Assembly (NCBI GenBank): GCA_025453675.1
Contig: JALOPW010000006.1
Coordinates: 1-62,832 of the forward strand
DNA: 62,832 bases
Source: Methanolinea sp.
Lineage (GTDB): Archaea; Halobacteriota; Methanomicrobia; Methanomicrobiales; Methanospirillaceae
Reading direction: 5' to 3'
Below, one piece after another: positions 3,541-9,268 of this stretch. A program made the position numbers and the translations under genes. Under the pieces are notes generated by a model. That model was not told the origin of the DNA and searched no databases. It saw only the letters and a list, made by a program, of their open reading frames with translations. Every line of letters begins with the position of its first letter. The first letter of the stretch is position 1.

Positions 3541-4071
3541 TTAAAGCCACGCTTTCCGGGCCGCGAGTTCGATTGCCCTCTGCACGGATTCCCTGGGGAT
3601 GATCGTGGCAACAGGCAGATTCACCAGCTGCTCGATGACGCTGCTGACAATGGGGGCACAGACGATAGCGGCCGCTCCTTCCCTCTCTGCCCTGATTGCG
3701 GCAATGATTGCCTCCTCCATAGTATGCACGGGATATTCACGTACTCTTACCTTCCGGCCGTCGACCTCGGCATTCCGCTCCTGTATCACGTCCAGGACCG
3801 GGCGGGCTGCGATCAGGCCGATAAACTCCCCCTCGGCAGAGTGGGTAATTCTCCGCATCGCGTGGACCACCGCACGAAGGGTGGAGAGGTTGGGTGATCG
3901 CTTTCCATGCACCATCTTGTAGAGGGAACTCGGGGCGATGCCACTCTTCTCGGAGAGTTCCCTGACACTGATTCGCAGGTCACGGCGCATAACCTCGCGA
4001 AGGGTGTGCACAAATTCCTCATCAGAGATAAGAGCCGCCTTGATCAGCCGATCGACAGGATCACTCTGCAT
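3541..4071 (-). CDS. XRE-family DNA-binding regulator
   Basis: This is a predicted transcription regulator of 176 residues. Residues about 30-75 form a helix-turn-helix: SVRELSEKSGIAPSSLYKMV followed by HGKRSPNLSTLRAVVHAM, the XRE/Cro pattern. The C-terminal half (about 85-176) has alternating hydrophobic stretches such as GAAAIVCAPIVSSVIEQLV and VATIIPRESVQRAIELA. These suggest a ligand-sensing alpha/beta domain that I cannot name. It lies 33 nt before argH on the same strand and is divergent from the ABC importer at 4263, so either could be its target. No operator was recognised. Confidence 0.85.
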   Translation of the reverse strand: MQSDPVDRLIKAALISDEEFVHTLREVMRRDLRISVRELSEKSGIAPSSLYKMVHGKRSPNLSTLRAVVHAMRRITHSAEGEFIGLIAARPVLDVIQERNAEVDGRKVRVREYPVHTMEEAIIAAIRAEREGAAAIVCAPIVSSVIEQLVNLPVATIIPRESVQRAIELAARKAWL

Positions 4072-4262: not shown

Positions 4263-5498
4263 ATGAAATTTTCATACGTGTGTGCAATTGTAGGCGTGCT
4301 GTTCTGTGCAGCCCTGATCGCCGGATGCATCAACCCTGCTCCGCCTTCGGGCACTCCGACGCCCACGACGCCCGCATCTGCTGGCACCGTCATCGTCACC
4401 TACGCCAAGGGAACGGGACCCATGCCTACCCTGCTCGGAACCGATCAGATCGATGGCTACATCGCCTGGCAACCCTTCGTTGAGGTCCCGCCACTGGTGG
4501 GAATTGGAAAAGTCCTGATCTATTCCGGCGATCTCCCCCCTGCAGGCAAATGGAAGAACCATCCCTGCTGCGTCTTCACTGCCACTGACGGGATGATTAA
4601 GGGCAACCCGGAACTCGCGAATGCCATGACGGCGGCGTTAATACTCTCCACGCGCTACCTGGAGGAACACCCGGATGAGAGCGCCGAGATTGTCGCAGAC
4701 TGGCTGGCAGGGAAGGGGAACTTCACCTACGGCGATATCTCCGTATCTTCGGTGGAGGTGCTGAAGAGGGCATTCCCCACGGTGAAGTTCGTGAATGAGC
4801 CAACCGATGGGTGGATGGACTCGAATATCGAATTCGTGTATGCCTTAAGAGACCTTAACGTCCTCACAGGGTCTCTTCAGAATTCCACAGACAGTGAGTC
4901 AAAGGAGATACTCTTTGACAAGAGCCCATATGTTGCCGCCAAGTCCATGATTGATGCAAGGAATATTGTTGCACCTGCCCCGGTGAAGGACCCGGTCGGG
5001 GTGGGTTACCTGATGTCAGACCATCATGCCGCGCTCTTTGTGGCCATCAAAAAATGGCAGTACTTCAATGACACCTATGGCATCGCCATCAAGCCCAGGG
5101 ATCTCTCCGCATCCAGGCCGGATACCGCAGACCTCCTCGTGAATGGAAAACCGGTTGCCGAGCTCAAGTTAGTCTCGGGTGACGCCGGTCCCCAGCTGAT
5201 GCAGCTGATGGCCACCGACAATATCCAGTTTGCACTGGTAGGTAATCCCCCGGCAATCTCAGCCGCAGACAAGGGTACTCCGGTCAAGATCATCATGGCC
5301 ATCAACTCGGAGGGATCCGGAGTGGTGGTGACCGAGGACTCCCCCGCTATCGACTGGAACAGCTTTGTCACATGGGCAAAAGAGCGATCTGCAGCCGGAA
5401 AACCGCTGAAGATCGCGGCTCCTGGAAAGGGCTCCATACAGGACGTCATGATCCGGTACTCCCTGGAAGCAAGCGGTTTATCAGTGAAGGAAGGATAA
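4263..5498 (+). CDS. ABC transporter substrate-binding lipoprotein, SsuA/TauA/NMT1-like, circularly permuted
   Basis: This is the extracytoplasmic binding protein of an importer in the nitrate/sulfonate/taurine group. A lipoprotein signal occupies residues 1-22 (lipobox ALIAGC, Cys22), followed by a Pro/Thr linker. Residues about 41-231 match what is normally the C-terminal half: KGTGPMPTLLGTDQIDGYIA, the NHPCCVF motif, NPELANAM, and a closing YVAAKSMIDA. Residues about 245-411 match the normal N-terminal half: GVGYLMSDHHAALFVA, GDAGPQLMQLM, FALVGNPPAI, PGKGSIQDVMIRY. The protein stops at SGLSVKEG, exactly where usual homologues continue into the segment now at residue 41. Length (411) is about that of one full binding protein, so this is a permutation, not a duplication. 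The permease starts 12 nt downstream. The substrate is unknown. The family is clear; natural permutation is inferred. Confidence 0.88.
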   Translation: MKFSYVCAIVGVLFCAALIAGCINPAPPSGTPTPTTPASAGTVIVTYAKGTGPMPTLLGTDQIDGYIAWQPFVEVPPLVGIGKVLIYSGDLPPAGKWKNHPCCVFTATDGMIKGNPELANAMTAALILSTRYLEEHPDESAEIVADWLAGKGNFTYGDISVSSVEVLKRAFPTVKFVNEPTDGWMDSNIEFVYALRDLNVLTGSLQNSTDSESKEILFDKSPYVAAKSMIDARNIVAPAPVKDPVGVGYLMSDHHAALFVAIKKWQYFNDTYGIAIKPRDLSASRPDTADLLVNGKPVAELKLVSGDAGPQLMQLMATDNIQFALVGNPPAISAADKGTPVKIIMAINSEGSGVVVTEDSPAIDWNSFVTWAKERSAAGKPLKIAAPGKGSIQDVMIRYSLEASGLSVKEG

Positions 5499-5510: not shown

Positions 5511-6275
5511 ATGAGGTATCTCCGGTTCCTCCTCCCCATTCTTCTTGTCGTGGGCTGGGAGATCGCGTCCTGGATCATCAACAATCCATTTATTGTCCCC
5601 TCTCTTACAACCGTAATTCCCATACTGATGCATCCTCTCAGCACCGAGTATACCCTCGGGACCGGGAGCATGGTGGAGAATGCATCTATTAGTATCCAGC
5701 GTGTAGGCCTGGGATTCCTTGTCGCTGCGGCCGTAGCCATTCCGCTTGGCATCCTGATGGGGCGGTCGACCCTTCTCAACGATTTCTTTGACTCAACCAT
5801 CGAGCTCCTCCGGCCCATCCCTCCCCTGGCATGGGTCCCGCTGGCCCTCGCATGGTTCAAGATTGGGCTCACCTCCATTGTATTCATCATCTTCATAGGG
5901 GCGTTCTTCCCCATACTCCTGAACACCATCGACGGGGTGAGATCGGTCAAGAAGACATGGCTCGAAGTGGCAACCACGCTTGGGGCAAAAGAGCGGCAGA
6001 TAATGGCAAAGGTCGTACTCCCCGGGGCCGCGCCCACCATATGGACGGGGCTTCGGGTGGGGTTCGGGATCGCCTGGATGTGCGTCGTTGCCGCGGAGTG
6101 GCTTCCCGGCATCTCCAAGGGCCTCGGCTACCTGATACTCTATGCCTACAACTTCGGCCAGACCAACCTGATCATAGCCGGGATGGTGGTCATCGGGGTC
6201 ATCGGTCTTCTTATCGACTTCGTCTTCAAGCGGGTGGAGAGACGATGGTTCTCCTGGAGGGGGCTTGAGCGATGA
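5511..6275 (+). CDS. ABC transporter permease, SsuC/TauC-like
   Basis: This is the membrane channel subunit of the importer. The 254-residue protein has about six hydrophobic segments. It carries the BPD_transp_1 coupling-helix pattern EVATTLGAKERQIMAKVVLP near residue 155-175 and PIPPLAWVPLALAWF near residue 103. Both are characteristic of the nitrate/sulfonate/taurine permease group. It lies 12 nt after the binding-protein gene and 37 nt before the ATPase, so the three genes form one operon. Confidence 0.94.
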   Translation: MRYLRFLLPILLVVGWEIASWIINNPFIVPSLTTVIPILMHPLSTEYTLGTGSMVENASISIQRVGLGFLVAAAVAIPLGILMGRSTLLNDFFDSTIELLRPIPPLAWVPLALAWFKIGLTSIVFIIFIGAFFPILLNTIDGVRSVKKTWLEVATTLGAKERQIMAKVVLPGAAPTIWTGLRVGFGIAWMCVVAAEWLPGISKGLGYLILYAYNFGQTNLIIAGMVVIGVIGLLIDFVFKRVERRWFSWRGLER

Positions 6276-6312
6276 ATCAAATCCCTGGATACCCGCACGG
6301 AGGTGATCTTCG

Positions 6313-7077
6313 ATGAGCCTGGTTCTCAAAAACCTCTCCAAATCCTTTGCAGGGGAAGGAAAGGCTCAGGTGGAGGCACTCTCCCATATCGACCTCGAGG
6401 TCAGGGATGGCGAGTTCGTCTCGGTCCTGGGCCCCTCGGGGTGCGGGAAGACAACCCTGCTCCGGATCATCGCCGGGCTCGACCATGCAACAGGTGGGAC
6501 CATCCAGCTGGATGGGAGGTTGATTGATGGCCCCTGTCCCAGGATGGCCATGATATTCCAGGAATACTCTCTCTACCCCTGGAGGACGGTAATCGACAAC
6601 ATCGCGTTCGGCCTTGAGATGAAAGGCATGGAGAAGCAGGAGAGGAGGGAGAAGGCGCTTGAGTTCCTGGAACTGGTCGGCCTCGTCGATTTTGCCGGCA
6701 ACTATCCTTATGAGCTCTCGGGGGGCATGCGCCAGAGGGTGGCCGTGGCCCGGGCACTTGCGATCGACCCCCAGATTCTCCTGATGGACGAACCTTTCGG
6801 TGCCCTGGATGCCCAGACCAGGAACATGCTGCAGCGGGAACTCCTGGAGATATGGGAGAAGACCAGGAAGACTGTCCTCTTCGTCACCCACAGCGTGGAT
6901 GAGGCGGTTTTCCTCTCAGACCGGGTCGTGGTGCTGACATCACGCCCGGGAGCTATCAGGGAAGTGGTCCCCATCGATCTCCCGCGTCCCAGGGAGAGGA
7001 CCGGTGCAGAATTCGCCAGTATACGCCGGTATGTCCTGGATCACGTGGAACACTCCGCGAATCCCAGTAAGGTTTAA
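6313..7077 (+). CDS. ABC transporter ATP-binding protein, SsuB/TauB-like
   Basis: This is the ATPase that powers the importer. In the 254-residue protein I see Walker A GPSGCGKTT (about 36-44), a Q-loop in MIFQEYSLYPW, signature LSGGMRQRVAVARAL (about 136-150), Walker B ILLMDEPFGALD and the H-loop FVTHSVDEA. The start is well supported by a strong Shine-Dalgarno sequence, GGAGGTGATC at 6299-6308, just before ATG 6313. It is the last gene of the importer operon. Confidence 0.96.
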   Translation: MSLVLKNLSKSFAGEGKAQVEALSHIDLEVRDGEFVSVLGPSGCGKTTLLRIIAGLDHATGGTIQLDGRLIDGPCPRMAMIFQEYSLYPWRTVIDNIAFGLEMKGMEKQERREKALEFLELVGLVDFAGNYPYELSGGMRQRVAVARALAIDPQILLMDEPFGALDAQTRNMLQRELLEIWEKTRKTVLFVTHSVDEAVFLSDRVVVLTSRPGAIREVVPIDLPRPRERTGAEFASIRRYVLDHVEHSANPSKV

Positions 7078-7092
7078 TAAGGCACATCCCCA

Positions 7093-7101
7093 TTTTATAA
7101 A
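7093..7101 (+). promoter_or_regulatory. TATA box of the L10e gene
   Basis: TTTTATAAA lies about 30 nt before ATG 7131, preceded by a purine-poor stretch. It is a near-ideal archaeal TATA box and gives the ribosomal protein gene its own promoter, separate from the importer operon. Confidence 0.6.
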
Positions 7102-7130
7102 GCACAGATAGGGACCAGGAGTTCTCAATC

Positions 7131-7667
7131 ATGGTACGAAAACCAGGAAAAATGTACAGGAACATCTCAAAAAAAGCCTATACCCGCAGGGAGTATATGG
7201 GCGGAGTTCCCGGGAGTAAAGTGGTGCAGTTTGATATGGGCAATCTCTCCCAGGACTTTCCCATGGCCGTCAGCCTGTCAGTGGAAGAGGCCTGCCAGAT
7301 CCGCCACACCGCGCTCGAGGCAGCACGTATCAGTATCAACCGTCACCTGATCAAGGACGTCGGGAGGATGAACTACCGGCTGAAGCTCCGGGTCTTCCCC
7401 CACCATGTGCTCCGGGAAAACAAGCAGGCAACCGGTGCAGGAGCAGACCGTGTATCTGAAGGGATGCGGCTCTCGTTCGGAAAGGCTGTCGGAACTGCAG
7501 CCCGCGTGGCACCAGGACAGGAGATTTATACCGTGTATACAACCCCCCAGTACCTTGCCCAGGTGAAAACCGCACTCAGGTCGGGCGGCCACAAGCTACC
7601 CTCCCCTTCCTTTGTCACCATCAAGGAGAAAGCAGTCCCTGAATCACCTGCTCCCCAGCAGGCATAA
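7131..7667 (+). CDS. rpl10e: large ribosomal subunit protein L10e (uL16)
   Basis: This is the archaeal/eukaryotic counterpart of bacterial L16, a 50S protein near the peptidyl-transferase region. The 178-residue protein begins [20 protein letters not shown]. It contains the conserved [19 protein letters not shown] region (about 84-102) and [16 protein letters not shown]. Length is normal for the family. It is a single gene with its own TATA box and a following T-run. Confidence 0.97.
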
Positions 7668-7675
7668 TTTTTTTT
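7668..7675 (+). terminator. T-tract terminator after L10e
   Basis: A run of eight T residues directly follows the L10e stop codon. Oligo-T tracts act as intrinsic terminators in archaea. Confidence 0.55.
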
Positions 7676-7832
7676 CCTGATATTCCCCTTCATCCCGTCT
7701 TATTCTGTGGAGAGGATAATCCAGAGAAGCCCATTTTTTACCTGACCGGATTCTTTCTCAGGTGATATGCTGTGCGAGAGATGCACAAGATCCCGCCGGT
7801 ATATATTCCCCGCCCATTCGTGCGTTATCACA

Positions 7833-7840
7833 ATATATAT
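7833..7840 (+). promoter_or_regulatory. TATA box of the fumarase/Kor/Suc operon
   Basis: ATATATAT lies about 30 nt before ATG 7869. Initiation about 25 nt downstream would fall within a few bases of the start codon. No Shine-Dalgarno sequence precedes this ATG, so the first gene of the operon may be read from a leaderless mRNA. A second TATA-like stretch lies near 7800-7807. Confidence 0.5.
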
Positions 7841-7868
7841 TCCACCCTATCGCCTAATTTTATAGAAT

Positions 7869-8705
7869 ATGATCCCTCTCCCCGACCCTTCTCTCCTCTC
7901 CGCCATCACCCATGCTACCTGCGAGGCTTTCCGGCAGGCCGAGATCAACCTCCCACCAGATGTGGTGCAGGCTCTCCGGAATGCACGTGAAAAGGAGACG
8001 AGCGAGATTGCCAGGGGGGAACTTACCAATATCCTCACCAACCTGGAGATGGCTGGGTCACTCCGCGTTCCCATCTGCCAGGACACCGGGGTGCCGGTCA
8101 TCTATCTCACCATGCCGCCCGGCATCCCGCTCACCACCGGTATTTATGACGCCATTGCCGAGGGGGTGAGGGAGGCGACAAGGGAGATTCCTCTCCGGCC
8201 AAACGTGGTGGACCCCCTTACAAGGGAGAATACCGGAGATAATACAGGTGTTGGGATGCCTGCCATTCATGTCCGGCCTGGTGATCGTTTCACCATCACG
8301 GTGCTGCCCAAGGGTGCAGGGGCCGAGAACATGTCCAGGATCACCATGATGCTCCCCTCTGAGAGGGAGCAGATACACAAGTTCGTGGCCGAGACCATGC
8401 TCCTTGCCGGGGGAAGACCCTGCCCTCCGGTGATCCTCGGTGTGGGGATCGGGAGCACGTTCGACGGGGCTGCAGCGCTCGCAAAGGAAGCTCTGCTCGA
8501 ACCTATCGACACCATGACCCCCTACGAAGAGCAGATCCTGGCGGCGGTGAATACGCTCGGCATAGGGCCGATGGGCCTCGGTGGGAGCACAACGGCACTT
8601 GCGGTCAAGGTCAAGACCGGTGGGTGCCATACCGCATCACTCCCGGTCGCGGTCAATGTCCAGTGCTGGGCCTGCCGGAGGGCCACTGTGGAGGTGCCAT
8701 ATTGA
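7869..8705 (+). CDS. fumA: fumarate hydratase class I, alpha (N-terminal) subunit
   Basis: This is the larger subunit of the two-subunit iron-sulfur fumarase, which interconverts fumarate and malate. The 278-residue protein has MAGSLRVPICQDTGVPVIYL, with one cluster-ligand-type Cys. It also has VDPLTRENTGDNTGVGMPAIHV, GAGAENMSRITMM and LGIGPMGLGGSTTALAVKVK, followed by the CHTASLPVAVNVQCWA Cys region. It is the first of eight overlapping genes (fumA-fumB-korDABC-sucCD) covering much of the path from malate/fumarate to 2-oxoglutarate, which methanogens use for glutamate synthesis. It lacks an obvious ribosome binding site and may be leaderless. Confidence 0.95.
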   Translation: MIPLPDPSLLSAITHATCEAFRQAEINLPPDVVQALRNAREKETSEIARGELTNILTNLEMAGSLRVPICQDTGVPVIYLTMPPGIPLTTGIYDAIAEGVREATREIPLRPNVVDPLTRENTGDNTGVGMPAIHVRPGDRFTITVLPKGAGAENMSRITMMLPSEREQIHKFVAETMLLAGGRPCPPVILGVGIGSTFDGAAALAKEALLEPIDTMTPYEEQILAAVNTLGIGPMGLGGSTTALAVKVKTGGCHTASLPVAVNVQCWACRRATVEVPY

Positions 8706-9268
8706 ACGTCATGGATCTCTGCACCCCGCTCTCTCACGAAGTGCTGATGCTCCGGGCCGGTGACCGGGTCACCCTCTCGGGGACGGTCTTCACCGCAAGG
8801 GACGAGGCGCACCTCCGCATGATGGAGAAAGGCATCCCCTTTGATCCCCATGGTGCCGCCATCTACCACTGCGGCCCGGTAATCCAGGAGAAGAGGATCA
8901 TCGCCGCCGGTCCCACTACCTCTGCCCGCATGAACACCCTCTCGGGATTCCTGCTGGAGAAGGGAGTAAGGGCTCTGGTGGGGAAGGGAGGAATGAGCAG
9001 GCAGGTTGCAGATCAGCTGAAAGGCCGGGGAGTGTACCTTGCCTTCACAGGAGGGTGTGCAGCTCTTGCCGCCTCCCGGATGACACTGAAAGGGGTCTAT
9101 TTCGAGGATCTGGGGATGGCCGAGGCGGTGTGGGCCATCGAACTCGACCGCCTCCCCCTGGTAGTGGGCATCGATGCCGCGGGAAACGACCTCTTCGAAG
9201 GGGTCAACAAGAATGCCCAGGCGCAATTCAGGAGAAGGTTCCAGGTAAAGAAGGAGGCCCCGGCATGA
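8702..9268 (+). CDS. fumB: fumarate hydratase class I, beta (C-terminal) subunit
   Basis: This is the smaller subunit of the iron-sulfur fumarase. Its features are DLCTPLSHEVLMLRAGDRVT, GAAIYHCGPVI (Cys), TTSARMNTLSG and GVYLAFTGGCAALAA, all of the fumarase C-terminal family. The chosen start is TTG 8702, which overlaps the fumA stop as TTGA. It has a well-placed GGAGGT at 8690-8695, six nt upstream. The ATG at 8711 is the alternative, but its spacing is poorer. Length is about 188 residues. Confidence 0.93.
   Translation: MNVMDLCTPLSHEVLMLRAGDRVTLSGTVFTARDEAHLRMMEKGIPFDPHGAAIYHCGPVIQEKRIIAAGPTTSARMNTLSGFLLEKGVRALVGKGGMSRQVADQLKGRGVYLAFTGGCAALAASRMTLKGVYFEDLGMAEAVWAIELDRLPLVVGIDAAGNDLFEGVNKNAQAQFRRRFQVKKEAPA

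Follow-up and report, generated by a model that had tools for sequence, protein, structure and literature searches.

The window, that is, the whole stretch of 62,832 nucleotides of Methanolinea sp. DNA that was analysed, contains an open reading frame at 4263-5498 (+) that encodes a lipoprotein of 411 aa. The translation begins with a signal peptide and the lipobox LIAGC, whose cysteine is Cys22; this residue is present in 48/48 aligned relatives, a count that is partly by construction since the cysteine was used to choose the starts of the rows. The gene is single-copy in its own genome and encodes the substrate-binding protein (SBP) of an ABC transporter, with permease and ATPase genes downstream (Table 1). 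There is one permease gene in the operon, and therefore the permease probably acts as a homodimer.

Table 1. Features of the locus (positions in the window), and matching DNA segments of two rearranged genes and their unpermuted relatives (positions in each of the two sequences).
Feature	Position	Strand	Evidence
Divergent HTH_3 regulator, weak PrpR_N-like C-terminal part	3541..4071	-	PF01381 4e-7; PF06506 5e-4, below cut-off
Signal peptide with lipobox LIAG|C, Cys22	4263..4328	+	Translation
Pro/Thr/Ser linker downstream of lipobox	4329..4382	+	AlphaFold2 pLDDT <50 for mature residues 1-16; disordered in model
Canonical C-terminal half, now first, residues ~41-231	4383..4955	+	Profile and orthologue alignments
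New linker, old C-terminus to old N-terminus, residues ~232-243	4956..4991	+	Alignment to L158
Canonical N-terminal half, now last, residues ~244-411	4992..5495	+	NMT1_2 and alignments to unpermuted orthologues
ABC permease (BPD_transp_1)	5511..6275	+	PF00528 E 2e-28; permease tree
ABC ATPase	6313..7077	+	PF00005 E 6e-32
L173 vs L235: upstream flank and signal peptide	5703-6504 with 5518-6323
L173 vs L235: C segment	6536-7137 with 6616-7220
L173 vs L235: N segment	7169-7446 with 6337-6614
L173 vs L235: downstream flank	7452-9066 with 7241-8861
L157 vs L164 (Methanococcales): signal peptide region	5707-5890 with 5998-6167
L157 vs L164: C segment	5946-6461 with 6709-7221
L157 vs L164: N segment	6514-7016 with 6197-6696
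L157 vs L164: downstream	7095-7532 with 7251-7686

The arrangement with gatD, argH and the HTH regulator on one side and SBP, permease, ATPase and L10e on the other is widely kept across Methanomicrobiales. The regulator is of the XRE type and may control the transporter by sensing a ligand; its homologues adjoin both permuted and unpermuted SBP operons in several families. In the Methanococcales sequences (L149-L167), unlike Methanomicrobiales and the Archaeoglobi-like group, no permease or ATPase like those of the window lies beside the SBP gene, permuted or not. The SaoX, SaoP and SaoA equivalogs all score below their NCBIfam cut-offs (42.1 against 300, 185.6 against 295 and 281.8 against 360, respectively). 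Assignment of a substrate from NCBIfam and gene context was dropped on account of these scores and because gatD, argH, L10e and the metabolic genes are unspecific.

Both halves of the protein match the NMT1/THI5-like and SsuA/TauA/NrtA/CmpA SBPs (PF13379, TIGR01728; type II), with which it shares the lipid attachment and the cognate permease and ATPase, but its halves stand in the opposite order. In profile searches, positions 137-232 of SsuA_fam (TIGR01728) match residues 49-149, while positions 5-150 of Pfam NMT1_2 (PF13379) match residues 242-408; that is, the C-half precedes the N-half instead of following it. The NMT1_2 match, composed of two stretches, scores 93.9 bits against a curated cut-off of 24.7, and the score for the aliphatic sulfonate SBP family TIGR01728, 71.4 bits, is below the family cut-off of 163.5. 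The C-half comprises the rest of lobe 2 followed by the C-terminal helices of lobe 1, and also matches the C-terminal parts of TauA, CmpA, NrtA, 3un6 and unpermuted orthologues. The N-half comprises the start of lobe 1, the motif GNPPAI, and then the start of lobe 2 with PGKGSIQD. A PDB sequence search with the window protein alone was uninformative (best E 0.1); in a PDB profile search, both halves of TauA and of 3un6 were matched in crossed order.

Direct comparison with unpermuted proteins gives the same picture. Against 12 unpermuted same-order SBPs (L062-L073), the native sequence produces two crossing HSPs per target (E ~1e-5 to 1e-12), while the rejoined sequence, residues 244-411 followed by 41-231, produces one colinear HSP for each (E 1e-17 to 6.6e-26); with L064, for example, residues 4-356 of 359 pair with 60-352 of 352. 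In a scan of every rotation, three different unpermuted targets put the best start near residues 228-246 (best against native scores of 570 vs 341, 259 vs 139 and 392 vs 211), and an unpermuted control protein scored best unrotated. The rejoined protein is 39.4% identical over 343 residues to an unpermuted Methanococcales orthologue (L158), in which the counterparts of the window protein's C-terminus, SLEASGLSVKEG, and of its mature-domain start, TVIVTYAKG, make up the two sides of a single short loop. The initial annotation had proposed that the halves are swapped behind the signal peptide, that the end and the mature start of the protein flank a normally continuous segment, and that the rejoined order should align end to end with normal homologues. 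The first proposal agrees with the profile positions, the HSPs and the rotation scan, the second with the L158 alignment and the third with the 12 single HSPs; the proposed interval for rejoining was right to within ~15 residues, the new linker lying at about residues 232-243.

An AlphaFold2 model of the window protein, built with 48 permuted relatives, has a mean pLDDT of 93.1 and a pTM of 0.89, and the model of L158 has a pLDDT of 91.4. When the secondary-structure strings of the two models are compared, 27/27 elements agree at one rotation only, with agreement declining on either side, and after rejoining the residue-level DSSP agreement is 93%. As a negative control, the permuted model was compared with the PDB by order-dependent Foldseek, which returned one match at E<=0.001 (TM 0.25); with the L158 model it returned 1142 such matches, led by 3un6 (E 3.8e-19), with CmpA/CmpBCD, NrtA and TauA among the further leading ones. 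Because of the rotated secondary-structure match and the Foldseek contrast, the prediction shows what would be an ordinary two-lobed type II SBP fold in which only the connectivity is rotated. Structure prediction had been suggested by the initial annotation as a check, and it yielded a confident fold whose secondary structure, once rotated, coincides exactly with that of the unpermuted orthologue.

The arrangement is not confined to this genome. A match to the window protein (E <= 1e-5) was found in 56 of 61 related genomes, including single-contig ones, and most matches are full-length and in the same order, which is thus kept across Methanomicrobiales. Carriers named in GTDB are Methanolinea, Methanoregula, uncultured Methanospirillaceae and Methanothermococcus sp. 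SCGC AD-155-C09, the last being a single-cell genome and the others MAGs. Between close relatives dN/dS is 0.05-0.10, indicating purifying selection; among the aligned permuted relatives the length is conserved and 15 columns are invariant. From dN/dS and the conservation of the operon, the window protein is very likely a functional SBP, in line with the earlier suggestion that the transporter, with its SBP-permease-ATPase operon intact, may work.

The window assembly consists of 53 contigs, in which tandem SBP genes might have been collapsed or contigs mis-joined. However, dozens of independent assemblies, one-contig genomes among them, share the order at 28-84% identity; the frame, lipobox, stop and flanking operon are all intact, and purifying selection is strong. 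The mis-assembly that the initial annotation had named as a refuting outcome is itself refuted by these independent genomes, and its remaining probability is negligible. The unusual order of the halves could also mark a degraded pseudogene, or the remnant of a fused duplicate, that has lost SBP function. This is very improbable in view of the low dN/dS, the kept length, the invariant columns, the conserved operon and the confidently predicted fold. As read from the sequence, the order signal peptide, lipobox, C-half and N-half stands in an intact SBP-permease-ATPase operon. It is near certain that the window protein is a natural circular permutant, and we give a probability of about 0.93 to the fuller reading, a working substrate-binding lipoprotein of NMT1/SsuA type (type II fold) that is naturally permuted.

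Genomes of Halobacteriota, Methanococcales and Pseudomonadota were sampled for relatives, and the distinct ORFs fetched were classified as 101 permuted and 45 unpermuted. In the phylum-level group of Methanothermococcus (36 genomes; profile A1), the order is canonical in most genomes and permuted in nine; note that under this profile a canonical gene gives a pair of neighbouring matches in a single frame, at profile positions 208-381 and then 6-202. A second profile (A2) detected the permuted order in many more Halobacteriota genomes (f9 and others; Archaeoglobi-like). Permuted SBPs thus turn up in four or more separate parts of the family: Methanomicrobiales, some Methanococcales, an Archaeoglobi-like clade, and one Methanocella-like MAG (G095, family f14), whose gene, L173, is cut elsewhere, between SGLFYRKG and TIADLKGKK. 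Relative to the initial annotation, which described a single gene, the permutation is clade-wide and apparently recurrent. Among 249 Pseudomonadota genomes, the only relative found is unpermuted; this gene (L175:6320-7384, G365) is related to the archaeal subfamily and possibly reflects an old transfer. No relative was found in a plasmid collection. One unpermuted orthologue (L168:5300-6700, G324) appears broken, with its N-half spread over two frames: profile positions 204-321 are in a frame of 148 aa, and positions 323-381 together with the C-half are in a frame of 252 aa.

For phylogenetic analysis, the halves were aligned separately and set in canonical order, and unrooted trees were calculated using IQ-TREE. 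The permuted sequences of Methanomicrobiales (98/86) and those of the Archaeoglobi-like group (100/100) each occupy one side of a branch, unpermuted clades lie between the two groups, and the whole tree contains four state changes. The nine permuted Methanococcales genes form one clade (92/88) that is nested in unpermuted genes and is sister to the unpermuted L164 (97/95), in agreement with separate N-half and C-half trees. AU tests reject a single clade of all permuted rows (p 2.2e-9), as well as the joining of permuted Methanomicrobiales with permuted Methanococcales (p 0.0015) or with the Archaeoglobi-like permutants (p 0.0005); these p values are somewhat optimistic, as the groups were picked after a quick tree, and the outcome is unchanged when long-branch and compositionally odd rows are dropped. 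The permease has no permutation of its own and so serves as an independent check: in its tree, the Methanomicrobiales sequences fall with the partners of f14 SBPs, both unpermuted and differently permuted (96/87), and stand separate from the Archaeoglobi-like set. The unpermuted order, being that of the wider superfamily, is taken as ancestral. From these trees we infer repeated origins of the arrangement within the family, three of them at the same loop, and recurrence at this loop is likely. A fourth event, with the different cut of L173, may be represented in one fragmented MAG.

The two younger events can be followed at the DNA level (Table 1). All matching segments of L173 and the unpermuted L235 (G068) are on one strand at 71-83% identity; at the internal junction of L173 stands a further piece resembling the lipobox linker, GTPxVKD, and the gene still ends at the original stop region, TTAATC. 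The L173 gene (L173:6364-7456), found in a single MAG, shares 70-80% identity with its unpermuted counterpart in the relative G068. We regard its swap as a very young event, with a private assembly error being less likely. In the comparison of L157 and L164, the next genes are also syntenic. In both cases the halves have changed places within a single gene, at its original site and behind a signal peptide that has stayed where it was. The DNA alignments of the two events suggest tandem duplication within the gene as the route; the first N-half and the last C-half would then have been lost, leaving the signal peptide ahead. The initial annotation had proposed this route for the window gene: the predicted product is seen in the two younger events, but the window lineage retains no trace of the process, its close relatives being all already permuted.

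An alternative to repeated origin is one ancient permutation, after which the unpermuted members reverted or horizontal transfer distributed the permuted form. The shared cut loop is compatible with this scenario, as is the same kind of divergent regulator beside permuted forms, and in unrooted trees one gain with several exact reversions is formally possible. In particular, a shared origin of the Archaeoglobi-like and Methanomicrobiales permutants was considered because of their common regulator; it was discarded, since the regulator also flanks unpermuted operons and both the AU tests and the permease tree contradict it. A single origin is opposed more generally by the rejection of a single permuted clade, by the position of the permuted Methanococcales genes inside an unpermuted clade and by the several exact reversions required. 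One permuted Methanococcales gene shares its locus and neighbours with its unpermuted sister, and was therefore not transferred in. We thus consider the single-origin scenario improbable compared with repeated origin. As for the route, fission into half-genes with re-fusion in reverse order, or intragenic cut-and-paste, are recognised mechanisms (PMC3320104), and no duplicated intermediate (N-C-N or N-C-N-C) was found among the sampled genomes. Such routes are unlikely, if somewhat less so than a single origin: no examined genome has two separate half-genes of the family, the signal peptide, both segments and the flanks are in place in one gene in both young events, and the repeated linker piece and reused stop region of L173 are as tandem duplication predicts. 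Duplication and trimming therefore remains our preferred route.

Circular permutation is known in other SBPs. Tp0684 (TpMglB-2) of Treponema pallidum is a circularly permuted 'Type Ic/Cluster Bc' SBP that still binds glucose, and its authors suggested a link between the permutation and membrane tethering (PMC4990184). As in the present case, a tethered SBP is naturally permuted and the permuted homologues form a family, but Tp0684 has a Type I/cluster B fold in which the N lobe is permuted and the order of the C lobe is unaffected, and recurrence is not known to be reported for it (PMC4990184). Membership of the window protein in Type Ic was rejected, as it matches NMT1_2 and type II SBPs only. 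CPSARST detected circular permutation at the structure level among glycine-betaine-binding proteins, molybdate-binding proteins and CysB (PMC2395249). These are also two-lobed binding proteins, permuted even among the glycine-betaine-binding proteins themselves, but they are <24% identical, belong to another subfamily, and come without a close unpermuted sister or a DNA-level breakpoint (PMC2395249). DNA methyltransferases are, as cited in PMC3320104, a classic case of circular permutations within one family, with duplicated intermediates documented; these are enzymes, while the SBP family provides recent in-place events without intermediates. The initial annotation knew of no described circular permutation in this family; SBPs of other families have been described as permuted (PMC4990184; PMC2395249). 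No description in the NMT1/SsuA family or in methanogens was found in open-access full text, and a report elsewhere is possible.

Natural circular permutations have mostly been recognised late, between proteins too diverged to reveal their origin. Here, the unpermuted sisters of the young permutants are ~60-84% identical per half at the protein level, and permuted and unpermuted orthologues at one locus make the steps, the constraint and the functional effect directly testable. A practical consequence is that order-dependent tools, such as profile domain order and Foldseek, under-recognise permuted SBPs.

The cut falls in the lobe-2 loop that separates the GSIQD helix from the following strand. 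The helix ahead of this loop points its N-terminus at the ligand cleft, which places the loop on the distal side of lobe 2. Judging from homology and DSSP, the cut would shift both termini there from lobe 1 and take the lipid anchor with them, and by the same fold reasoning the cut of L173 probably also lies in lobe 2, in a neighbouring loop. The fold would be unchanged, with lobe 1 becoming one continuous stretch, and the permuted protein would work as an ordinary lipid-anchored SBP that closes on a small substrate and delivers it to the homodimeric permease and ATPase. The chance that three random cuts share one of ~26 inter-element loops is ~0.0015, a rough figure given viability constraints. 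Three apparently independent events at the same loop, all moving the lipid anchor, raise the question of whether topology is selected in tethered binding proteins. We tentatively suggest, as a possibility that we doubt more than we believe, that permutation at this loop (at least three times, and once at a neighbouring loop) was repeatedly selected because the move of the anchor changes the encounter of SBP and permease. If so, SBP topology would not be frozen but open to adaptive evolution.

The C-terminus follows the Q of SIQ/TVQ by 16-19 residues in the Archaeoglobi-like group, by 17-18 in Methanococcales and, with a range of 17-31, by a median of 18 in Methanomicrobiales; the cuts of these three groups are thus in one and the same lobe-2 loop. 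The longer Methanomicrobiales tails, up to 31 residues, probably come from a second permuted paralogue clade (L076-L081 and L087), which is ~30% identical to the window protein and in which several members have longer C-terminal tails. In at least one of these paralogues (L080), an N-terminal transmembrane-like stretch seemingly replaces the lipobox.
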